A DNA stretch of 64,000 bases from assembly GCF_020906515.1 (NCBI RefSeq), contig NC_085849.1, positions 4,154,001 through 4,218,000 on the forward strand, in the 5' to 3' direction. The translations under genes and the position numbers were made by a program. Every line of letters begins with the position of its first letter. The first letter of the stretch is position 1. Below the pieces are notes generated by a model, which saw only the letters and a list, made by a program, of their open reading frames with translations, was not told the origin of the DNA and did no database searches. Below are positions 4,109-23,406 of the stretch, piece by piece. The DNA comes from Vanrija pseudolonga. Lineage: Eukaryota; Basidiomycota; Tremellomycetes; Trichosporonales; Trichosporonaceae.

Positions 4109-4563
4109 TACCCCCCCGCTGCGTGCCCCTCACGTCTGCCGCCGGGTTGTCGAGTCGGCTGTCTCAGGGCACCACATATCTCTCTAGACGATTAAGGGTC
4201 CAGGCTAGTAGACACATTCTCGGACGGGTGCATTTCCCCGCCTCCCCCCGCCGCCCCCGCCTGCGCCTGGCGGTGTCAATGGCGCGATATGGTGGCAACT
4301 GGCGTGCGGTCATGTCAGCGCGACAGGGAGGGCGGGCGTTGCCCACTGCCGCTTTGAACGCTTGTCTGGCCACACACGACTCACACAGCCAAGCCCCGCC
4401 CTTCCCTCTCCTCGTCCTATCGGCCGTCAACACGCCGTGTCGACCGAGTCACCTTCGCCCGGCTTGGCTCGGCCCGCACCATGGCTCCACTCTGGTATCC
4501 GCCTTTCCCGGCCATTGTCATGCGCATGCCACTCAATGACACGACTATCCGGACCTCGACCAA

Positions 4564-4579
4564 CCCCCCCCCCCCCCCC
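4564..4579. repeat. C16 homopolymer
   Basis: Uninterrupted run of 16 C about 540 bp upstream of the Mtr10 start. Confidence 0.9.
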
Positions 4580-5120
4580 TCGGCCCTGTTCCGGTATCCT
4601 TGATCCTGCAGGCATGCTGCCCGTTGGAATCGCACCTGACTTGTGCCCCTTTCAAAATTTGTAGAGCAGTGCGGTGCTGCCGCCGACATGCACCGATTGT
4701 CGTCGGCTGTCGCTTGGCTTGCCTTTTTTACCCGACATCACCCGTGGGGCATCATAGGGCGCCGATGTGGTTCTCCAGCACACGTGAAGAACTGGGGGCG
4801 GCGCGGTGGAAATTGATCCCGCTGCGAAGCTTCGTGCTCTAGGCGAGCCACACCCGGCCTGCGCCTTTCTCTGCACGCCTAATTTGATTCCGTCTCTTGC
4901 CACGCGAGTTGACTTCTTTGAAGGGCTGCTCGAATGCTCGTCGCCGACTGATGTCCACGGCGAGAGAGATAGATGCCAAAGTCCAAGTTGCATCTCCAAG
5001 CAGACAACACACTCACATCTTAGACTCTGAAACGCACGTCGGTACACTTGCACGGCGACTGCCCCCCCTCCCCCTCGTTCACGACCTCCCCCTCCCCCCG
5101 GCTCCCCTTCCCTCGGCGGA

Positions 5121-8094
5121 ATGGCGACCTCTCACGAACAATCAACGGCCACCGTGCTCCAGGCACTCCAGACTTTGTACCACGACCCAGACTCGGCAGC
5201 AAAGAAGAGGGCAAACGAATGGCTTGAAGAGTTTCAGCACAGCGTAGGTTAAGCTTACTGTGGCCTCTCTAACCTCGCAGGTCGACGCTTGGCAGACATG
5301 TCATACGCTGCTCGTATCGCCAGAGGCCCCGCTCGAAGGTCGCCTGTTCTCTGCACAGACACTGAGGGCAAAGGTATGTTGTTGCCACTTGCATATCGCG
5401 CTTTCTGACACCACAAAAAGATTCTCTATGATCTCCCCCAGGTTCCCAGAGACTCACTGCCATCGCTGCGCGACTCGCTCCTCGACTCGCTGGCACCTCT
5501 GACGCAGCCCGGCGCCCCAGCTGGCTCGCGGGCCGTCTTGACACAACTCAGCTTGGCCCTTGCCGACCTCGCACTCCAGATGCCAGAATGGACTAGCGTT
5601 GTGCAGGGCATGATTGAGCGCTTCGGACAGGACCCATCGACCGTCATTGTCCTGCTGCGCTTCCTCTCGTCGCTTGCCGAGGAATCCTTGAACCAGAGGC
5701 TGCCAGTTCCAGTAGGTTGACGGCATGGGGCAAAGGGACGACGAACAATTCTAACACTCCACCACCCAGCCCGAGGGATCTGACATCTACGATGCGCTCG
5801 TCAGCGACGCGGCCGAGAGCGTCGTCAACATCCTGTCAATGTACATCCAGGCCGAAGGCTTGACGCCCCAGATCAAGACGGCCATCTTCGAGACGATGCG
5901 GAGCTGGCTCCGGGCCGGCGAGCTCCCCGTCACAGTCGTGGGCCAGAGCCCGCTCTTCCCGGCCATGTTTGACGCGCTCGAGCCCGACGACCTGTTTGAC
6001 TCGGCCGTCGACGTCATTTGCGACCTCATCCACGAGACGCAGGAGATCCACGACAACATGGAGGTCGTGCAACAGATCCTCCCCCGGCTTATCGCCCTCC
6101 GCCCCAAGCTCGACCAGTACACCGACGACCCGGACAGGATACGAGGCTACTGCCGCATGTTCTGCGAGGCCGGCGAGTGCTACCGTGACCTTATCAAGCT
6201 CCACCCGCGCGAGGCCTACCCCCTCGTCGAGGCCATCATGGTCTGCACGGCGTACCCCGACCTGGACATTGTGCCGATTACCTTCCAGTTCTGGTGGATC
6301 CTGGCGGGCATTGTCAACCGTCAATCCAACCTGCACAATGACCCCAACTTTGCGCCCTACATCCAGATCTTTGGCCAGCTCCAGTCGACTATTATCCGCC
6401 ACCTCCACTTCCCGGCGGACAATGAGAGCCAGACGGCGCAGGAGCGTGACGAGTTCAGGACCTTCCGCCACCGCATGGGCGACACGCTCAAGGACTGCTG
6501 CCAAGTGCTCGGCGCGTCGGCTTGTCTCAAGAAGTCGTACGACCTTGTCATTGAAGCCATGGCCAAGCCCACGCCCTCCTGGCAGGAGATTGAGGCGCCC
6601 CTGTTCTCAATGCGCTCGATGGGCGCCGAGGTCGACCCCGATGACGACGAGGTCATGCCGCACATTATGGACCTCCTGCCCAAGCTCCCCGAGCACCCTC
6701 GTATCCGCTACGCCGCGATTCTCGTCATCTCGCGCTACACCCAGTGGATCGACCGTCACCCACAGAATCTCGCGTTCCAGCTTGGTTACGTCTCGGCTGG
6801 CTTCGACATGGCCGAGGACGAGGTGTCGGCGGCGGCAGCCCAGGCGATGAAGTTCCTGTGCCAGGACTGCAACCGTCACTTAGTGCCCTTCCTGCCTCAG
6901 CTGCACACGTTTGTCACCACCGTTGGTCACAAGCTCGACCAGGCCGACATGGTCGAGGTGTGCGAGGCTATCGCCTATGTCATTCAGACGCTCCCGACCG
7001 AGGAGGCAGCCCAGGCTCTGCAGACGTTTACCCAGCCACTCATCGAGCGGGTTGCTCTCGTGGCCAACGCCGCTGCCGAGGCGCCCAAGCCCGAGCTCCA
7101 AAAGGTCGCCGACGCACTCGAGCAGCTGGACGCGTACCTTGCTGTCATTCGCACCCTCAACCCTCTCCCCGAGTCATGCTTTGCGACCGCCGCGACGGTG
7201 TACTCTGTCCTTGACACCCTCCTGTCCAAGTACGCGCTGAGATACTACATCTCGGAGCGTGTCGGCTCGATCCTCCGTCGCGGACTTACCTTCTTCCCAG
7301 AGCGCGCTCTCGAGCCGGTCATTCAGCCCCTCCTGGAGCGCATGGCAACGTCGTTTTCGCAGACTGGCTACGCCTCGTATCTCTGGATTACTGGCAAGGT
7401 GGCATCAAAGTTTGGCGAGTCGGCCCAGCAGCCAGGGAACGAAGCCCTTGCTGCCCTCTTGGTCGGTGCATTCCAAAACGTCACCGCGTCGCTCGACAAG
7501 CTCTTGCAGGTCAAGACTGCAGTTGAGATTGCCGATGTCATGGACGACTACGTGCACTGCTTCATGGCGTACATCAACGCGCTGCCAGTTCAAACGCTGG
7601 CGTCCCCGGCGATTCCTCAGGCCGTGTCTCACACACTCCAGGCGTTGCTGTGCCCTGCCCCGCAGACCATCCTCGTCTCACTCGACACGCTCGCCCTCCT
7701 CGCGCAGAGAATGCAGCATGCGCCGTTCCTCGCGCTCCTCCAGCCCGTCTTTGCGCAGTACGCCAAGCTCATCCTGCAGCTCGTGCTTTCGGGCGTCGTC
7801 TCGGGCTACCCCGAGGAAGGGTTTGACCAGGTCCCTATCATCGTCCAGGCGACGGTCGTGTCCGTGTCGCCTGCCGACGCCGAGCAGTATGCGGCCGAGG
7901 CGCTTGACAAGATTCCCGGCCACACCCTCCCTGCTTCCGAGAAGCAAAAGTTTGCCGCCGAGCTGCATGCGTACCTTACACCGGGGTCCGGCGGCCCCGA
8001 CAAGCTCAAACTTGCGCTCGTCCAGCTCATGCGTGCGGCCAGACGGGCTCGCGAGCGCGGCAGGCAGTCGCGCAAGAGCCTCGGTGGGCTCTGA
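5121..8094 (+). CDS. MTR10: Mtr10/transportin-3 family importin (karyopherin beta)
   Basis: Nuclear import receptor of the Mtr10 (yeast)/TNPO3 (animal) family, known to carry SR-type RNA-binding proteins and to act in tRNA traffic. Exons 5121-5243, 5281-5373, 5421-5711 and 5770-8094 all join in phase 0 and give 943 aa, close to yeast Mtr10 (972 aa). The N terminus has the importin-N pattern (ALQTLYHDPDSAAKKRANEW, then DAWQTCHTLL and FSAQTLRAKI). The rest is helical HEAT-type sequence, including LLRFLSSLAEES and the family-typical FRHRMGDTLKDCC. Intron 1 is only 37 nt. The start is the first ATG in frame and gives the expected N-terminal length. C-terminal basic Arg-rich tail. No upstream operator was recognised. 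Confidence 0.95.
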
Positions 8095-15964: not shown

Positions 15965-16874
15965 GTGGGTCGCGGCACCTCGGCCTCCGCCTTGCGGCTT
16001 CGGCTACTACCACCACCAACGCCCTCAACACGCGCACCACCACCATTTCCACAAGTCCCCTCAACCTGTATCTAGTAACCTGAACATTCATGACTGCGCC
16101 CCCGTCCATACTCGCTACCATCAACCACACTCGCCGGGCATCAACGTTGTCGTGCTCGACCACCTCGACCCTGTCGTGGTCAAGCTCTACCCCATCATCC
16201 CGGATGGACGCTCCGTCATCCTCAGAATCCCCGCTGATATCTGGCATCCGTAGTAGAAGTAGCAGTATGCACCCGAATGGCGTGACGACGGACGTGATCC
16301 GGTGGCGCAGTGGCACTGACGTGGCGGCGCGTGGCTGGGTGGTGGGGCTAGAGGGGCTGTGGCTTGGGTGCATGCATTCGTGGGACAGACAGCAGGTGCC
16401 CCGCATGCAACGCTGAGGTTGTAGGTTACAGCAGAGACATGCACTGTCGCCTGCATGCATCGCATCGAGCAGACGAGAGTGGCCCAGGGGTCTAGGCACA
16501 CAGATCGGCACGAATGTGGCACTTGGCAAGGTGGCGGGTCAAACTGAATCTCACCCCCGTCGAGCGGCTACGCGCGGCGGCGCTCGGCCCATCCACACTC
16601 TACGACAATACACCATACCAGCACCGCGCCGCATCCAGTGTCCGAGATAACACCCGCGCGCGCAGGTGTACATAGCGGCTCACCACCCCTCCCTCGCGTG
16701 GGCGCCACCACCTCAGGGCCGCTCGCCTCGCACCTCGCCTCCTCCCTGACCTTCGCACCGGCTTCGCTCCCCTCTCTCTTCCTCTTCCCTCCGCCCCTCC
16801 TCCCTCATCCCTTGGATGAACCGCGCTGCTCAAATGCCCCCCGACCCGCCCCTCAGCATCCAAGTGCAACATCT
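15965..16874. other. Intergenic region before the tRNA array
   Basis: 3' region of the preceding gene, then about 700 bp without supported features apart from two TGCATGCA octamers (16369-16376 and 16452-16459). Confidence 0.55.
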
Positions 16875-16968
16875 GGTAAGATGGCCGAGCGGTCTAAGGC
16901 GCTGTGTTCAGGAGAATCATCCCTCCATTCGCAGTCTTCGGGCGTGGGTTCGAATCCCACTCTTATCA
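16875..16968 (+). tRNA. tRNA-Leu (anticodon CAG), with intron
   Basis: Acceptor GGTAAGA (16875-16881) pairs with TCTTATC (16961-16967) and A73 follows. D stem GCC/GGC. Anticodon stem CTGTG (16902-16906) pairs with CGCAG (16930-16934). Anticodon CAG is at 16909-16911. A 16-nt intron (16913-16928) sits at the canonical 37/38 position. A class II-length variable arm (TCTTCGGGC) is present. T stem GTGGG/CCCAC with loop TTCGAAT, so the B box is intact. No T-run follows before the next tRNA. Confidence 0.95.
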
Positions 16969-16986
16969 AGCACTCTCCTCTTCATT

Positions 16987-17067
16987 ACATTGTTGGTGAA
17001 ACGGTATCATGCGTCGTTGCCACGTGCAACAATCGACGCGGCAGGGGTTCGACTCCCTTACAATGTA
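16987..17067 (+). tRNA. tRNA-Gly (anticodon GCC), with 10-nt intron
   Basis: Acceptor ACATTGT (16987-16993) pairs with ACAATGT (17060-17066) and A73 follows. D stem GTGA/TCAT. Anticodon stem CGTCG (17012-17016) pairs with CGACG (17034-17038). Anticodon GCC is at 17019-17021. A 10-nt intron (17023-17032) lies after position 37. T loop TTCGACT with stem AGGGG/CCCTT (one G-U pair). The first pair is A1-U72 instead of the usual G1-C72, and both sides are changed so pairing is kept. Only 18 nt separate it from tRNA-Leu and 6 nt from tRNA-His, with no terminator in either gap. Confidence 0.88.
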
Positions 17068-17073
17068 ACCAGA

Positions 17074-17157
17074 GCTCGTATAGTGTAGGTGGTTATCACT
17101 GGTCGTTGTGGTTCGTCTGCTTCCGACCCGACCGCTGTTCGACTCAGCGTGCGAGCA
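17074..17157 (+). tRNA. tRNA-His (anticodon GTG), with 11-nt intron
   Basis: Acceptor GCTCGTA (17074-17080) pairs with TGCGAGC (17150-17156), A73 at 17157. D-arm stem GTG/CAC. Anticodon stem GGTCG (17101-17105) pairs with CGACC (17124-17128). Anticodon GTG at 17108-17110. The 11-nt intron is 17112-17122. T stem CGCTG/CAGCG with loop TTCGACT. G-1 would be added after transcription, as is usual in eukaryotes. Followed by a T5 terminator. Confidence 0.93.
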
Positions 17158-17158
17158 C

Positions 17159-17163
17159 TTTTT
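17159..17163 (+). terminator. RNA polymerase III terminator (T5)
   Basis: TTTTT one base after the discriminator of tRNA-His. It is the first T-run of four or more after the tRNA-Leu start, which suggests one transcript for all three tRNAs. Confidence 0.8.
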
Positions 17164-17300
17164 GGATATGCGGGGTCGGGAGTTGGTGGCGAATGAGGTG
17201 GTGGCATCGTCCGTCTTTGTCGCTACAGGATAGAGGTATGTTTACACTACAAAGAACGTCGCATCGACCAAGTCCTCCACTCCACGTTGGCGCCAAGCAT

Positions 17301-18218
17301 CTACTCGCTGTCGAATGGCGGCAGGTCCCCTGGCATCCTCGTCCCCGTGAAGCCGCGGTAGCTGCTCTCGATGTGTTCAACGAACGCGCGTTTGAGGGCG
17401 AGCCACTTCGTCTTGGGTGGAAGAGAGCTGACGGGAGCCGGGAGATTGTTCGTGAAAGCAGCTTCGACCTGCACGCGGATGTTGCCCTGAAGACTGTTGC
17501 GGAAGATGGCAAACTTGGAGTCGGCCGAGAGTGAGCTGCCGCACTTGCCGTGCGCCTTCACGATGCCGCGGAACTGGTTCAGGTGGATCGTCATGTCGAG
17601 AGACGTCGCGCCGTCCGCGAGCCGCATGCCACGAAGGTGGCGGTAGAGATCATGGGCCCTCGCGCTGTCGTTCCGCTCGGGGAAGAGGGCGACAAGGAGG
17701 GCATTGTACATGTCCTTGACGGACCACAGGTCCTTGACGTGCTGAAAGAGGTCCTTGTCGACCGTACGGGCCAGCGCAGAGCGGGCGACGAGCTCTGCAT
17801 CGCGCCAGCGACGCCAGTTGACGTCCATGTGCCGGCGCGCAAGCGAGTGGCTGATCTCAAACGACTGCACCATCTGCAAACCGGACGGCGGGCGGTCGCC
17901 TGCCCTCTGGCCAGGGGTGCGGTAGGATGTAATGTGGTTGTCTTCATCGGTACGCCGGCACGGCTCGTCGACGAAGAACTGCTGGCTAGCGCCCATGGCG
18001 TGCAGGCAGGCTGTGATGCCGCGGAACCACTCGTCAAAGTCGGCGGGCTTGCGGAGCTTGCGCACGAGGGTGTTGCCTGATTGAGGAGCGGTGGGTCGGT
18101 GGGGGAAGGCAGGGGCTGGAAGCAGGCGAGCGGGGACGAGGAAGCCGAGGAAGAGGGTGAGGAAGACTACGGCGACGACGCCGGCGGCGACGACGAACGA
18201 AGGCCAGTCTGAAGCCAT
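17301..18218 (-). CDS. Ty1/copia-type Gag-like protein 1, with N-terminal membrane segment
   Basis: A 305-aa Gag-like protein of the copia (UBN2/retrotran_gag) type that looks whole. ATG at 18218 is in good context (AAGACAATGG). Residues about 7-32 form one hydrophobic helix (FVVAAGVVAVVFLTLFLGFL), so it may be membrane-anchored. The body has the shared family features: LRKPADFDEWFRG, VDEPCRR, GDRPPSG, WRDAELVARSALARTVD, then LWSVKDMYNALL and the F/L-rich capsid-like C half. No zinc knuckle, protease, integrase or reverse transcriptase is present nearby. It is homologous to the two following genes and lies directly beside the tRNA array. Either a relic of a retroelement or a host-domesticated capsid-like gene; I cannot decide between them. 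Confidence 0.8.
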   Translation of the reverse strand: MASDWPSFVVAAGVVAVVFLTLFLGFLVPARLLPAPAFPHRPTAPQSGNTLVRKLRKPADFDEWFRGITACLHAMGASQQFFVDEPCRRTDEDNHITSYRTPGQRAGDRPPSGLQMVQSFEISHSLARRHMDVNWRRWRDAELVARSALARTVDKDLFQHVKDLWSVKDMYNALLVALFPERNDSARAHDLYRHLRGMRLADGATSLDMTIHLNQFRGIVKAHGKCGSSLSADSKFAIFRNSLQGNIRVQVEAAFTNNLPAPVSSLPPKTKWLALKRAFVEHIESSYRGFTGTRMPGDLPPFDSE

Positions 18219-18796
18219 TGTCTTGTGGGGATCGCGGTTGTGTGGAGAGTGGTGGAGAGCCAAGGGATGGGAGGAGACAGGACTCAATTGACCATCAGAG
18301 CCGAGCACGCGCTGTCCGAGGTGACAAGGGGTATGCGCTGATACTCGATCACTTTGTTGGACTTGAAGGTCAGGTGGTGATGGCGAAGCAAGGACACCTA
18401 CCTGACGGTATGAGGGGCTGATGAGAGTGTGGTCTGTGGGTGTTGTGGTGTGGTGATGGTGAATGAGTGAAAAGGAAAGTCAAACATGCAGCTGGTGGCG
18501 CGTCGAGGGAAGGTCGAATTGGCATCGTCTGGATCGGCGGCGAGGAAGGACTTGCTGGCTGCCAGACAAATCCAGTCAACCCAACACCCAACCAAATATC
18601 ACGATAAAATGCAAGACCAGGTTTGCTGTGTCTCATTCACCCACCGTTTCACGACTTCCACCTGGCATCACTCCCTCCCACACTCCAGTCCATTGTCCAA
18701 CATGTTTAATGATACAAAAGTGCCTAAACAACACCCGAGTCTTACTTGACTGTCCGTTCACCCTCGCTATCACCCATTGAGCCCTGTGCTCTGGCC
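18219..18796. other. Intergenic region between Gag-like genes 1 and 2
   Basis: Promoter of Gag-like gene 1 and 3' region of Gag-like gene 2, which are tandem on the minus strand. I looked for direct repeats of LTR type on both sides of the genes and saw none. Confidence 0.55.
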
Positions 18797-19807
18797 CTAC
18801 TCAGCCGCCATGCCCTCCTCGGGGACTGGGGCCTCCTCCGCGGGAACCGCCTCAAACACAACCCCATCCTCAACCTCATCCTCGCCCTCGGCATCGTCAC
18901 TGCCATACCCATCGTCCTCAATGTCCTCCTCCTCCTCCTCGTCACCCTCACTCCCCTCATTCTCCTCACTCTCGCTCCCCTCATTCTCGTCACCCACACT
19001 CCCCTCCGCCTCGACCTCCGCCACGACCTCCTCCGCGACCTCCGCCTCGACCACCTCCTCGACCTCCAACCTGCGCTTGGCTTCGATTTCAGTCTTGAAG
19101 AGGTCCCAGAGATCGCGCCAGTTGTTCTTGAGGGGGCACTTCGCAACAAAAGCGGCCTCAAAGCGGACGCGCAGGTCGCCTTGGATGCTGAGGAAGAAAA
19201 GGGATAGAGATGATTCGTTCGAAATGGGGTATCCCATATTGCGCCTCCGCACGAGAATCGCGTAGAAGTCCTGAAAATGCCGGGTCATTGCTTCGGCAGA
19301 GGCGCCGTCGTCGAGCAGCATTTCGCGCAGCTTGCGATAGAGATCCTTTGCGTTATAGTCGTGGGCCTCGTTCGGGAAAAGGAGTGCGTGGAGAGCGTAG
19401 AACATGTCCTTGACACACCAGAGGTCCTCCACCTGAATGATGAGAGGGGTGTCGACAGTCAGGAGGAAGACGGAGCGGGCAAGGAACTCCGATTTACGCC
19501 AGGTGGCCCAGCGCGACTTGAACCAGTTGTCCGGAATGGGCCCAGATGCTGGAGACAGCTGCTGGCCGTGCGGAGGGTGGTTTCCAGCTATCCCGTACTG
19601 AGGTCGATATACCGAGATATGATTGCTCTCGTCTGAGCAGCGGTACGGCTCGTCGATGTACATCTGGGCGTGGGCCCGCTTGGGCATCAGGCAGGCGTTG
19701 ACGCCGCGAAGCCAATCCAGCCAGTCGTCGGCCTTCCGCAGCCTGTGTACCTTGTTGCCCATGACCGTGGTGTAGCGAGGGCCATCGGAGATACGGGTCG
19801 GTGGCAT
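18797..19807 (-). CDS. Ty1/copia-type Gag-like protein 2, with acidic C-terminal tail
   Basis: A 336-aa Gag-like protein that looks whole, from the ATG at 19807. It aligns with Gag-like protein 1 over most of its length: LRKADDWLDWLRG, IDEPYRCSDESNHIS, WRKSEFLARSVFLLTVD, LWCVKDMFYALHALLFP, DLYRKLREMLLDDGAS. After the capsid-like domain it has a very acidic tail of about 80 residues (Glu/Asp-rich, DEEEEEDIEDDG), absent from the other two copies. An open frame continues upstream of this ATG, but that part lacks homology to the sister genes. The acidic tail is coded on GC-rich repeated GAG/GAC codons. Confidence 0.75.
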   Translation of the reverse strand: MPPTRISDGPRYTTVMGNKVHRLRKADDWLDWLRGVNACLMPKRAHAQMYIDEPYRCSDESNHISVYRPQYGIAGNHPPHGQQLSPASGPIPDNWFKSRWATWRKSEFLARSVFLLTVDTPLIIQVEDLWCVKDMFYALHALLFPNEAHDYNAKDLYRKLREMLLDDGASAEAMTRHFQDFYAILVRRRNMGYPISNESSLSLFFLSIQGDLRVRFEAAFVAKCPLKNNWRDLWDLFKTEIEAKRRLEVEEVVEAEVAEEVVAEVEAEGSVGDENEGSESEENEGSEGDEEEEEDIEDDGYGSDDAEGEDEVEDGVVFEAVPAEEAPVPEEGMAAE

Positions 19808-20656
19808 GTTGAAGCTTAGGGAGACGGATAAGCCGGGTGAAACCAGTCGTAGGAGGGGGATAAAGCCTTGGTAGAGGCGAACACGACAGCGGTGACGACG
19901 ACGGTGGCCACTGAGGGGGTGGCGACTGGCGGATTTTTCGAAGTTCGAAGAAGACAAGGCGAGGCGAGAGTCGAGGACAAGTGGAAGGAGAGACGAGAGG
20001 ACGACGCCAATATGGTAGGTGTAGTGGGCGCCCAACGCCGCTGGGTGAGGTTGGTGCTGGGCGGGAGGGGGCGGCGCAGAATTGGCAGTGAGCGAGCGGC
20101 TGAGTGTTTGCGTTAGCCAAGTTGGCGCAGGGTGCTGCTCGTCATACCTCGTGCTCGTGACCACGAAAGAAGGTGGAAAGAGTATGGCCAAGAGGAGGTG
20201 GTGTGAGGCTTGTGAAGTGAATGTAAGAAGTGTAAAGAGTGAAGAGTGAAGCGTGTCGTGATTGCAGTGGGGGGCGTCTGTCGAGAGGGACGGAAGGATG
20301 GCGGCCGCCGCCGAACCGGCGCGCGTCGGGGTCGAGTCATCCAACACGAGGCCTGAGGCGCACACACATCAGGCCAAACCCTCGTGGGGGGCCTTGTGCT
20401 CGCCATTATTCCAGCTGCTTTAATCACTCTCTTGTCTTTTTGTCGCATATCGTCCTGCAATCTCGACCACCGATTGTCTAGACGACAAGTCGGCGACTGC
20501 TCTCGACAAGACGGCATGACCGACTCATCCACAGAGGCCTCGCCTCTTCAGCGACGGGCAGCACACAGATTTATCAACACCTTGTCGTCTTCTCTTCCTT
20601 TCACTCACTCACCATCCCTCACCTCTTGCTAATCGAGCCACGCTCTACACTGCAAA
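19808..20656. other. Divergent promoter region between Gag-like genes 2 and 3
   Basis: About 850 bp between two head-to-head Gag-like genes. It is more AT-rich near 20390-20630 than the surrounding DNA. No transposon ends recognised. Confidence 0.55.
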
Positions 20657-21508
20657 ATGAGCACCAGCGTACCACCGAGCACCACCAGCATGACCGGCCA
20701 GGCACCCCAGCCACTCCAGCCACCCCAGTACGTCGTGTGCCACGGCAACACTACGCGCAAGCTGCGCACCCTCGCAGACTGGGGCGAGTGGTACATCGGC
20801 CTCGAGGCGCTCCTCCTCACCCTCAATGCCCCCAACCACTTGTCTGCCCCCGAGCCGTACCGCGAGACCAACTACGACCGCCACATCTGGTTCTACCAGC
20901 CACGAGGAGAAAAGTGTGGCGACCGTCCGCCGGAGGGCGACCAGATCGCGAAGGGCTATGGTCTTTGTGGGTCTCCACCTCGTGAACCGCCCGTCGTTGA
21001 TCGCGAGCGCTGGATGGCCTGGGCAAGGAAGGAGCGTCTGGTGCGCGCGGCGCTGCTCACCACTGTCGACTCGGCGCTTCTCCTCAAGGCGGCCTACACC
21101 ACCCTGTGGTCCTCGTACGACATCGTCACAGCCGTAAGCGCCATACTCTTCGGCCCAAGCTCCTATGAGGCCCGTGTCGACAACCGTCGGCGCCTGCTAC
21201 TCCTGCACCTCGACCACTTTCACCACATCAAGAGGCACTTTCTCGAATTCGAGGAGCTCGCCCCCAAGGCCGACATCCTCCCCTGGGACAAGGTGGCCAT
21301 CTTCCGTCGCGGCCTGGTCGACTGCTCGATTCGTGCCAAGATTGACGAGCTGTGCGAGTCCACCCCTGGCGTCAGGCTCGACTGGGACAAGTTCGCCCGG
21401 ATGTACAAGGCCGCCACGCGCGCGATTATCAGCGAGGAAATGGATATCAAGCCGGAGGACTGGACTGACGACTTCTTCGACGTCCCCGCGGACGACACGG
21501 CGAGCTGA
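20657..21508 (+). CDS. Ty1/copia-type Gag-like protein 3
   Basis: A 283-aa single-exon protein that looks whole, ATG in context GCAAAATGAG. It shares LRTLADWGEWYIG, PEPYRETNYDRHIWFYQP, GDRPPEG and the VRAALLTTVDSALLL block with the two minus-strand neighbours, then diverges in the C half (FHHIKRHFLEFEELAPKAD, WDKVAIFRRGLVDCSIRAK). It has neither the membrane helix of copy 1 nor the acidic tail of copy 2. Short acidic end (EDWTDDFFDVPADD). Transcribed divergently from copy 2. Function unknown. Confidence 0.78.
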   Translation: MSTSVPPSTTSMTGQAPQPLQPPQYVVCHGNTTRKLRTLADWGEWYIGLEALLLTLNAPNHLSAPEPYRETNYDRHIWFYQPRGEKCGDRPPEGDQIAKGYGLCGSPPREPPVVDRERWMAWARKERLVRAALLTTVDSALLLKAAYTTLWSSYDIVTAVSAILFGPSSYEARVDNRRRLLLLHLDHFHHIKRHFLEFEELAPKADILPWDKVAIFRRGLVDCSIRAKIDELCESTPGVRLDWDKFARMYKAATRAIISEEMDIKPEDWTDDFFDVPADDTAS

Positions 21509-23406
21509 CACTGGCGGGCGAGTGAGTCGTGGTACTGCTGAGGAATCAGCACGGAGTGAAATGGGCCGGTGGGGGCGGGCAGTAACGATGGCGTCTTGGT
21601 AGATACTACATATGAACATGCAGCAGCTGCGTGGACCACTCACTGCCAACAGTTTGGAACCAAACAGAGCTCGTTACGAGCGCGGAGCCCCACCTCCACC
21701 ACGCCAACCACAGAAAACAAAGTTGCCCGCAGCGGATGGCCTGTTCGGCTCCCGCTCTGTCCTATGGTCCTCTCCCGGGCACAACAACCATCACCTCCAG
21801 GAGCATGTGTGCCACTGACCGCTGGACCGCGTGATACTAACAGCTCTCTTCCCAACTGATCGGTGTTTGCCTTTGCTTGCTGACGCGTCCATTCCGCGGT
21901 GAGGAGGGGCCAGCCCGTCCAGGCAGCGACGCGCGCCGAATCAGTCAATCCAGGCACACACCCCGTGCGTCATTGACCAAAAAGTGAACAGTTGACCATC
22001 CCCTTCGAAGACAATCAATCTTCTGCAGACACCGACGGCGCGCGCCATTCCCCGCCACGGCGCACTAAATACTGCTCTCTCTGCTCTACGAGCCCACGTC
22101 GTCGCCGAGGCGGAGATGGAGTGTCGCGTCCACGCCCTGGCGTTTGTGCGGGATAATTAAAGCGCGCGGCGGAATGGTGTGCACCGCTATCTCACTCGGC
22201 CCTTGCGACCTGCCTATTTCACAGCACCGCATTTTTCAGCGTGCTGCTTTATCTCGAATAAATACTCGACATGCACTCCTCGGCCGGCGTGGTGCTTGAC
22301 GCGACGCGTCAAACCTGCCAAGGTGGTGCTCACGTAGCCGAGCGTGCATCCGAACAAGCATGCTATCGGCCTCTGCTCGGCGCCGCCGCCGGCTGGCTCG
22401 CTCGGCGTCATGCGGCCGAAAGCAGCCGCAAGCAGCCGTGTGCCGTGCGTGCGTGGCACGATGGTTCGAGTGCCCTCGCGACCGCGGCGTGAAGCTGTGC
22501 AATCTGCGCTGGTGGGCTCTCGTTTCGTTTCCATCCGGCGACTTGGCGCCTGGGCTAGCATGCCGAGGGGTGCAAGGGAGAGCGAGAGAGAGCAGGAGGG
22601 AGCGAGATCGGAGCCGGGAAGGGTGCGGTCCAACCCACCACCACCACAACCTACATCCTCGAGTCTCCGCGCATCAGCGGCATCGCGGCTCAACGCCCAC
22701 GTCCCCGGCACCGAAATAACGCGCTGCGAGCGCCGAGGCGCGCGGCGCACGCACGCCAAGTCGCCAAGCAGGCTCGCCCTCGTGGGCCACTGACCTCCAG
22801 ACCCTTGTGGCAGTGATTCGGTCGATCCAGACCCCTCTGCATGCCGTATGTAGCTGGGCGCGGCGCCTGCTGCGGATCGCTACTGGCGGCCGGTCGGTCG
22901 GTCGCTCGTCGTTGTGAGACGCCGGGGAATAAGAGCAAAATTAACGCAAAGGGTGGGTAGGTCGGTGTGAATGGAGATTGGGGGAAGCGTCCGCCGCCGG
23001 CGCGCGTGGCGCGCGCGCGCGCTCTCACTCGCTCGCTCGTTCGGTGACTACTGCTTGTGCTCGCCGCGCCGTGGCGCCGCGCTGACCTCAGCCTATTGAG
23101 AGAAAACAACGAGGCGGTGTGCGCCTCGTTTATGACCCGATGTCTTGTCATTCCGGTGCGGCGTGCGGCGCGCTCGATCTCTGCTGTAGTGGGAACGAGC
23201 GAACGCCTCACGTCTAACCTGGCTGGCTGCGGATGGCGGCGCAGGTGATAAAAGAAGCCAGCGGGGACGTGTCAGATCGTTCGTTCGTTCGTTCCTTCGT
23301 TCGTTCGTCGCAGCCGTTTCGTTTCATCGCACAGCAAAACGCCGCAAACCGCTCCTGGCCTTACCCTTCTCACACTTTTGCATCTCTCGAACAGCGCAGC
23401 TCGGAA
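21509..23406. other. Intergenic region
   Basis: About 1.9 kb. It contains AT-rich spots near 22060-22160 and 22250-22270 and a TTCG repeat just before the next gene. No supported gene. Confidence 0.55.
23277..23310. repeat. TTCG tetranucleotide repeat
   Basis: Near-perfect run of TTCG units about 100 bp upstream of the next ATG, probably inside its promoter or leader. A TATA-like GATAAAAG lies just upstream. Confidence 0.7.

Follow-up and report, generated by a model that had tools for sequence, protein, structure and literature searches.

Three clustered Gag-like genes of copia capsid type in Vanrija pseudolonga, tentatively read as domesticated capsid genes

Saccharomyces cerevisiae has a restriction factor, DRT2, that was domesticated from Ty1' Gag (PMC10951436). 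A self-encoded restriction factor of Ty1, p22/p18, is made from the element's own internal transcript and is without the N-terminal domain (NTD) of the capsid (CA) (PMC8458377), and p22 and Drt2 both act via dead-end assemblies (PMC12530519, PMC10951436). Arc and PEG10 have a Ty3/gypsy (Metaviridae) origin, and a survey of metaviral capsids reports that the human genome has none from Pseudoviridae (PMC11011659). In a literature search with most subscription journals outside its scope, DRT2 was the one fungal case that we saw described of a solo gene derived from a Ty1/copia-type Gag. Here we analyze a stretch of 64,000 nucleotides of Vanrija pseudolonga DNA (contig NC_085849.1, positions 4,154,001 to 4,218,000; the window), in which three Gag-like genes, G1, G2 and G3, lie clustered beside tRNA genes. 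They are copia-type, unlike Arc and PEG10, and from the comparisons given below we judge DRT2, not Arc or PEG10, to be their nearest precedent.

A preliminary description had placed three whole Gag-like paralogues at 17301..21508, and this was borne out. G1, G2 and G3 are uninterrupted open frames (Table 1, lengths counted from the first ATG), each with an A at -3 relative to its start and with gene-like G+C at the third codon position (0.82, 0.76 and 0.82, and 0.77 in the frame of the genome's own copia element). G1 is 40% identical to G2 over 241 amino acids (E 2e-51) and 36% identical to G3 over 148 (E 1e-22), and by their sequences the three are paralogues. The motif strings said to be shared (LR-x3-D-W-x2-W, EPYR and GDRPPxG) are present approximately, each being exact in only two of the three copies; the variants are LRKPADFDEW and EPCR in G1 and GNHPPHG in G2. 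Each copy has its own ends, as had been described from the letters: hydropathy places a hydrophobic helix in G1 only, an acidic tail is found in G2 only (net charge -40 across the last 100 residues), and G3 has neither. The basic stretch after the G1 helix suggests that the capsid would face the cytosol. G1 also has a relative, P0002, available as a protein sequence, which is 65% identical and has the same architecture, with a helix at the same position (mean hydropathy 2.65). The identities amount to 17/30 in the helix stretch, 52/70 over residues 51-120 and 47/60 over residues 121-180.

Table 1. Positions of the Gag-like genes, the copia element and the neighbouring tRNA genes (window coordinates unless a locus or contig is named; CTD, C-terminal domain)
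Feature	Position	Strand	Evidence or remark
G1, 305-aa capsid-only Gag-like gene, N-terminal membrane helix (predicted)	17301..18218	-	Open reading frame, tblastn, Pfam, model, relative P0002
G1 predicted membrane helix, residues 10-28	18135..18191	-	Kyte-Doolittle mean 2.77 over 19 residues; same position in P0002
G1 capsid region, residues 49-290 (NTD ~49-180, CTD ~181-290)	17349..18074	-	VIA-align to 8vvw, 8s41
G2, 336-aa capsid-only Gag-like gene, acidic tail	18797..19807	-	Open reading frame, tblastn with own copia Gag, 40% to G1
G2 acidic low-complexity tail, ~residues 250-336	18800..19060	-	Net charge; tandem repeat 18915-19006
G3, 283-aa Gag-like gene; clear in the capsid NTD, unproven in the C-terminal half	20657..21508	+	
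Two tandem solo Gag-like frames	L018:3588-4130, 4474-5157 (C2 ~3,118-3,119 kb)	-	Profile E 2e-12, 8e-16
Solo Gag-like frame, long low-complexity tail	L019:3726-5084 (C2 ~3,008-3,010 kb)	+	Profile scan
Frameshifted solo Gag-like gene	L019:2143-2957 (C2 ~3,008-3,010 kb)		Frameshift inside homologous part
Solo Gag-like frame	L021:4078-4842 (C6 ~2,199 kb)	-	Profile E 2e-4
Copia copy	L020:1466-6644 = G000:C1:3170465-3175643		Other copies: two on C2, one on C3
Three intron-bearing tRNA genes (Leu-CAG, Gly-GCC, His-GTG)	16874..17158	+	ARAGORN with introns; Rfam for first two of three

The capsid ancestry of these genes is seen most clearly in the predicted structure of G1, for which the Drosophila Copia capsid (8vvw, 8s41) was the best match among the matches listed, and retroelement or retroviral capsids occupied the first 19 of the 50 listed. 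VIA-align placed the model on both Copia structures across both capsid domains, and structures consisting of a CTD only aligned over residues ~175-296. Structure prediction, named in the preliminary description as a possible refutation, did not refute the capsid-like fold proposed there and supports it for G1. The Copia capsid differs in coming from an element that is complete and carries a nucleocapsid, a zinc finger and pol (PMC11835246). For G2, the two-domain fold is based on its identity to G1, which extends across both domains. A profile recovered the held-out CTDs of G1 and G2 (E 6e-11 and 8e-12) and, weakly, that of copia (0.054). The C-terminal half of G3 gave E 21 with a profile built without it and the G3 model has a pLDDT of 48.7; G3 is demonstrably capsid in its N-terminal half only.

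A copia-type capsid ancestry was further supported by sequence comparison with the Gag of the genome's own copia element, the sole intact copia found in this genome. By tblastn across the 64-kb window the Gag matched G2 (E 6e-7, Gag residues 242-383), G1 (E 9e-7, residues 243-383) and, most weakly, G3 (E 0.008, residues 240-283). Aligned as profiles by hhalign, the trio with P0002 matched copia Gags across the capsid middle with a probability of 92.6 and E 4.5e-7; of the five copia-side rows, four are plant proteins recruited by a profile that already contained the own copia Gag, and the aligned copia row displayed is that Gag. Pfam Retrotran_gag_2 (PF14223) scored G1 at 22.6 bits and G2, barely, at 12.4, both below the curated cut-off of 27, and gave no match to G3; at E<=1 it matched seven members of a nine-member alignment that includes the own copia Gag and P0002. 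A search of solved structures by sequence returned nothing meaningful for G1 or for the nine-member profile. The Ty1/copia-type capsid block that had been noted thus stands for G1 by its model, for G2 by its identity to G1 and for all three by their matches to the own copia Gag, and for G3 it does not extend beyond the NTD. Taken together, a copia-type capsid is very probably the source of all three genes.

Neither protease, integrase, reverse transcriptase nor long terminal repeat (LTR) had been seen in the preliminary description, and the searches agree. The pol part of copia found nothing better than E 3.2 in the window, and among repeats of >=20 bases in 16000-23000, a length at which short or strongly decayed LTRs could be overlooked, there was one low-complexity family only, inside the G2 tail, and no LTRs flanking the genes. 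A pattern search for the zinc knuckle C-x2-[CH]-x4-H-x4-C found none in G1, P0002, G2 or G3; the same pattern occurs in the own copia at residue 447. Because they have no nucleocapsid and no enzymes, the trio proteins are unable to replicate an element.

The genome's copia element is recently active. It is present in four full-length copies with a single 1540-aa frame in each, its eight LTRs of 124 bp are all 100% identical to the query LTR, and a 5-bp direct repeat is present at the one copy inspected for it. Three further LTRs, apparently solo, match at 100% (two) and 98% (one), which gives 11 LTR matches in total. Such an element could provide enzymes to non-autonomous, Gag-only mobile elements, and G1, G2 and G3 might be thought to have been spread in this way. 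We consider this very improbable, as the genes have no terminal repeats in the search described above, blastn of the copia element against the window gave no match at E 1e-3 (a lone match of 42 bases came from the element's flank), and no near-identical copies of G1 or G3 were found in the genome. Short pieces of copia reverse transcriptase were also observed, at G000:C2:3258407-3258646, C4:2703467-2703673 and C1:1436180-1436445; one is above the family cut-off, one has two stops and one is very weak, and they are possible traces of older copia insertions.

Contrary to what had been supposed, the family is not purely local. Searches of the own genome together with a profile scan added five or more solo Gag-like genes from three further loci (Table 1). 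The counts from the own-genome searches are lower bounds, and none of the five dispersed genes was included in the scanning profile. The two genes of the L019 pair had profile E values of 3e-16 and 6e-6. In all five the match goes no further than profile position 149-160 of ~284, the equivalent of residue ~180 in G1, where its NTD borders on the CTD; after this match four of the frames end within ~27 residues and the fifth continues as a 269-residue low-complexity tail. By sequence the dispersed genes would thus consist of the capsid NTD only. Possibly a strongly diverged downstream exon may exist, because the profile misses the CTD of G3 and finds that of copia only weakly. A weak match at C4:1847805 (E 0.004, internal stop; scanned as L039) had no profile match and was excluded from the family count.

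In a tree of nine NTDs, G1 and P0002 grouped with support of 98/99 and the trio with P0002 at 91/94, the latter below the tool's mark of 95; the tree did not settle the branching of the dispersed genes and copia. Relatives in sequence collections were few. The G1 protein matched itself and P0002 only (5617 candidates), and the nine-member alignment matched itself, P0002 and four weak plant PF14223 proteins (E 0.02 to 5.5), which are not independent support for the trio as the alignment contained the own copia Gag. Both alignment searches, this one and one with G2 and G3, scored ~8000 candidates, namely those sharing most words. A scan of viral contigs gave 32 pattern matches and no relative.

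To judge selection we relied on a codon model with position-specific frequencies, as the NG86 method alone is unreliable here owing to composition and saturation. Omega was below 1, and omega = 1 was rejected, in all ten pairs. Controls also give large values of twice the log-likelihood difference (2dlnL), with a maximum of 59.8 in the 20 alignments that paired G1 with a codon-shuffled G2 and of 40.9 in the 45 neutral runs started from G1, so that only G1-G2 (78.2) and G1-G3 (73.2), which are above every control run, count as evidence of selection. Among the dispersed genes, C2a-C2b, C2a-C2c and C2b-C2c gave 25.3, 42.3 and 74.9, without length-matched controls, and NG86 ratios of nonsynonymous to synonymous substitution (dN/dS) of ~0.8 to 1.0. 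Neutral drift, simulated with uniform base composition and substitutions only, left the frames open in 0.00-0.40% of runs at the observed divergence and in 0.06-2.4% at half of it. These sequence-based results give moderate support to the view that the trio is retained under selection. Retention is best supported for G1, because P0002 exists, and we think it likely that at least G1 has been kept as a host gene. The earlier suggestion that a conserved core points to host use is partly supported by the signal for G1-G2 and G1-G3 and by the helix shared with P0002, and it finds no backing in G2-G3, which falls within the controls.

Several results weigh against the explanation that we favour below. 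The NG86 dN/dS values of the trio are 0.45 (G1-G2), 0.80 (G1-G3) and 0.70 (G2-G3), six of the ten codon fits reach the divergence bound, and the 2dlnL of G2-G3, 45.0, is surpassed by 6 of the 20 shuffled controls; moreover, G1-G3 and G2-G3 were judged by controls of the G1-G2 type and had none of their own. The G1 model has modest confidence (pLDDT 63, pTM 0.44), and on the G1 CTD alone PEG10 fits as well as Ty1, so that copia and gypsy are indistinguishable there. In long alignments the trio shares ~21-26% identity with the Gag of the own copia, a level attained by the shuffled controls too, with amino-acid identities of 22-32%. One dispersed relative, at L019:2143-2957 and so on a contig other than that of the trio, is frameshifted and apparently a pseudogene, showing that part of the family decays, and the search with G2 and G3 returned the window's own proteins only (7995 candidates scored). 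The last two observations would fit the view that the genes are decaying relics, that is, old copia Gag fragments at a hot spot beside tRNA genes, with frames open by chance in a GC-rich genome. The sequence is indeed GC-rich with many long overlapping frames, and relic 2 of S. cerevisiae shows that Ty pieces gather at sites flanked by tRNA genes (PMC10951436). We nevertheless regard decay as unlikely, since frames stayed open in no more than 2.4% of neutral runs, G1 has in P0002 a relative of the same architecture, the selection controls that were run all lie below G1-G2 and G1-G3, and the repeat and pol searches given above found neither LTR repeats nor pol debris around the genes.

As the explanation that suits the data best we propose, tentatively and at somewhat less than even probability, that the trio consists of old copia capsid genes which were domesticated and act by capsid-capsid contacts, with restriction as their most likely use. 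The known activity of the capsid module is self-association. A Ty1/copia-type Gag gene would have lost its nucleocapsid, pol and LTRs, and the resulting solo gene, the presumed common ancestor, would then have duplicated locally beside the tRNA cluster, the copies gaining different ends (the membrane helix in G1, the acidic tail in G2). The proteins would make capsid-capsid contacts and package no RNA, and could thereby interfere with copia-type particles in the way known for Drt2 and p22 in yeast, G1 possibly at a membrane. That restriction of copia-type elements is their function is possible, if somewhat doubtful. We prefer it for three reasons: the closest fungal precedent, Drt2/p22, works in this way; DRT2, like the trio, is a Gag piece that stands alone next to tRNA genes (PMC10951436); and the genome has a copia that is low in copy number and recently active.

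A cellular role is the other use to be weighed. Arc builds a capsid lattice for the cell, and G1 might form such a lattice on the inner face of a membrane for vesicles or the transfer of cargo, much like Arc or like Copia capsids at the fly synapse, while G2 and G3 would co-assemble with it or regulate it. In favour of this are the membrane helix, kept in P0002, the presence of both capsid domains in G1 and the basic stretch that suggests a cytosolic capsid; Copia capsids are also described to move between fly cells (PMC11835246). The zinc knuckle is absent in all copies, leaving no evident RNA cargo, and we hold such a role to be quite unlikely. The preliminary description compared the genes with Arc and PEG10; the best full-length structural match and the sequence matches are copia-type, and the nearest precedent is DRT2.

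The likeness to DRT2 lies in a solo Ty1/copia Gag piece without pol, in related elements in the genome and in adjoining tRNA genes (PMC10951436). The tRNA cluster stops 142 bp short of the G1 3' end, and as we see it this neighbourhood is a parallel with DRT2 only. For copia, ARAGORN found no tRNA in stretches that cover real flanks of the L020 copy only (~1.5 and 3.3 kb), the other three stretches being nearly all element. There are also differences: DRT2 is a shortened Gag with the CA-CTD at its centre and is closely related to its target, whereas G1 and G2 keep NTD and CTD, are distant from the present element and are clustered with G3 as three, and G1 has a membrane helix. The trio is likewise unlike p22/p18 in its origin and its NTD. 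Restriction by p18/Drt2 is narrow: between close subfamilies it hinges on a match at three residues (PMC12530519). With specificity of this type, and given how little the trio resembles the present Gag, poisoning of the present copia is doubtful; this is the strongest point against restriction. An older, now lost element may have been the target.

Elsewhere in the window, ARAGORN reported at 2086-2403 a tRNA-Glu with a 225-base intron, unlisted by Rfam and probably false. The segment 62001-64000 has an AT skew of -0.242, the largest of the 2-kb steps, and the gene content of the window includes RRP12 and a TNPO3/IPO13-like gene.

Compared with DRT2, what is new here is that there are several copies, that two or more of them have both capsid domains, that one has a predicted membrane anchor and that there are dispersed kin with the NTD only. 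It is conceivable, if improbable, that these make up a two-tier restriction set, in which the full-capsid, nucleocapsid-free genes of the window (one of them membrane-tethered) are joined by the NTD-only genes elsewhere, the latter being the reverse of p22 and Drt2, in which the NTD is absent. In such a set the NTD-only factors may poison the contacts of the capsomer ring, as opposed to the CTD dimer contacts poisoned by p22/Drt2; the authors of the Drt2 specificity study name CA-NTD restriction factors as a possibility, none yet identified (PMC12530519). The well-known domesticated capsids, Arc and PEG10, stem from Ty3/gypsy elements of animals. If our reading is true, these genes would allow testing whether fungi evolved capsid-based restriction more than once, and whether proteins with the NTD only or with the full capsid are able to do the work of NTD-less ones.

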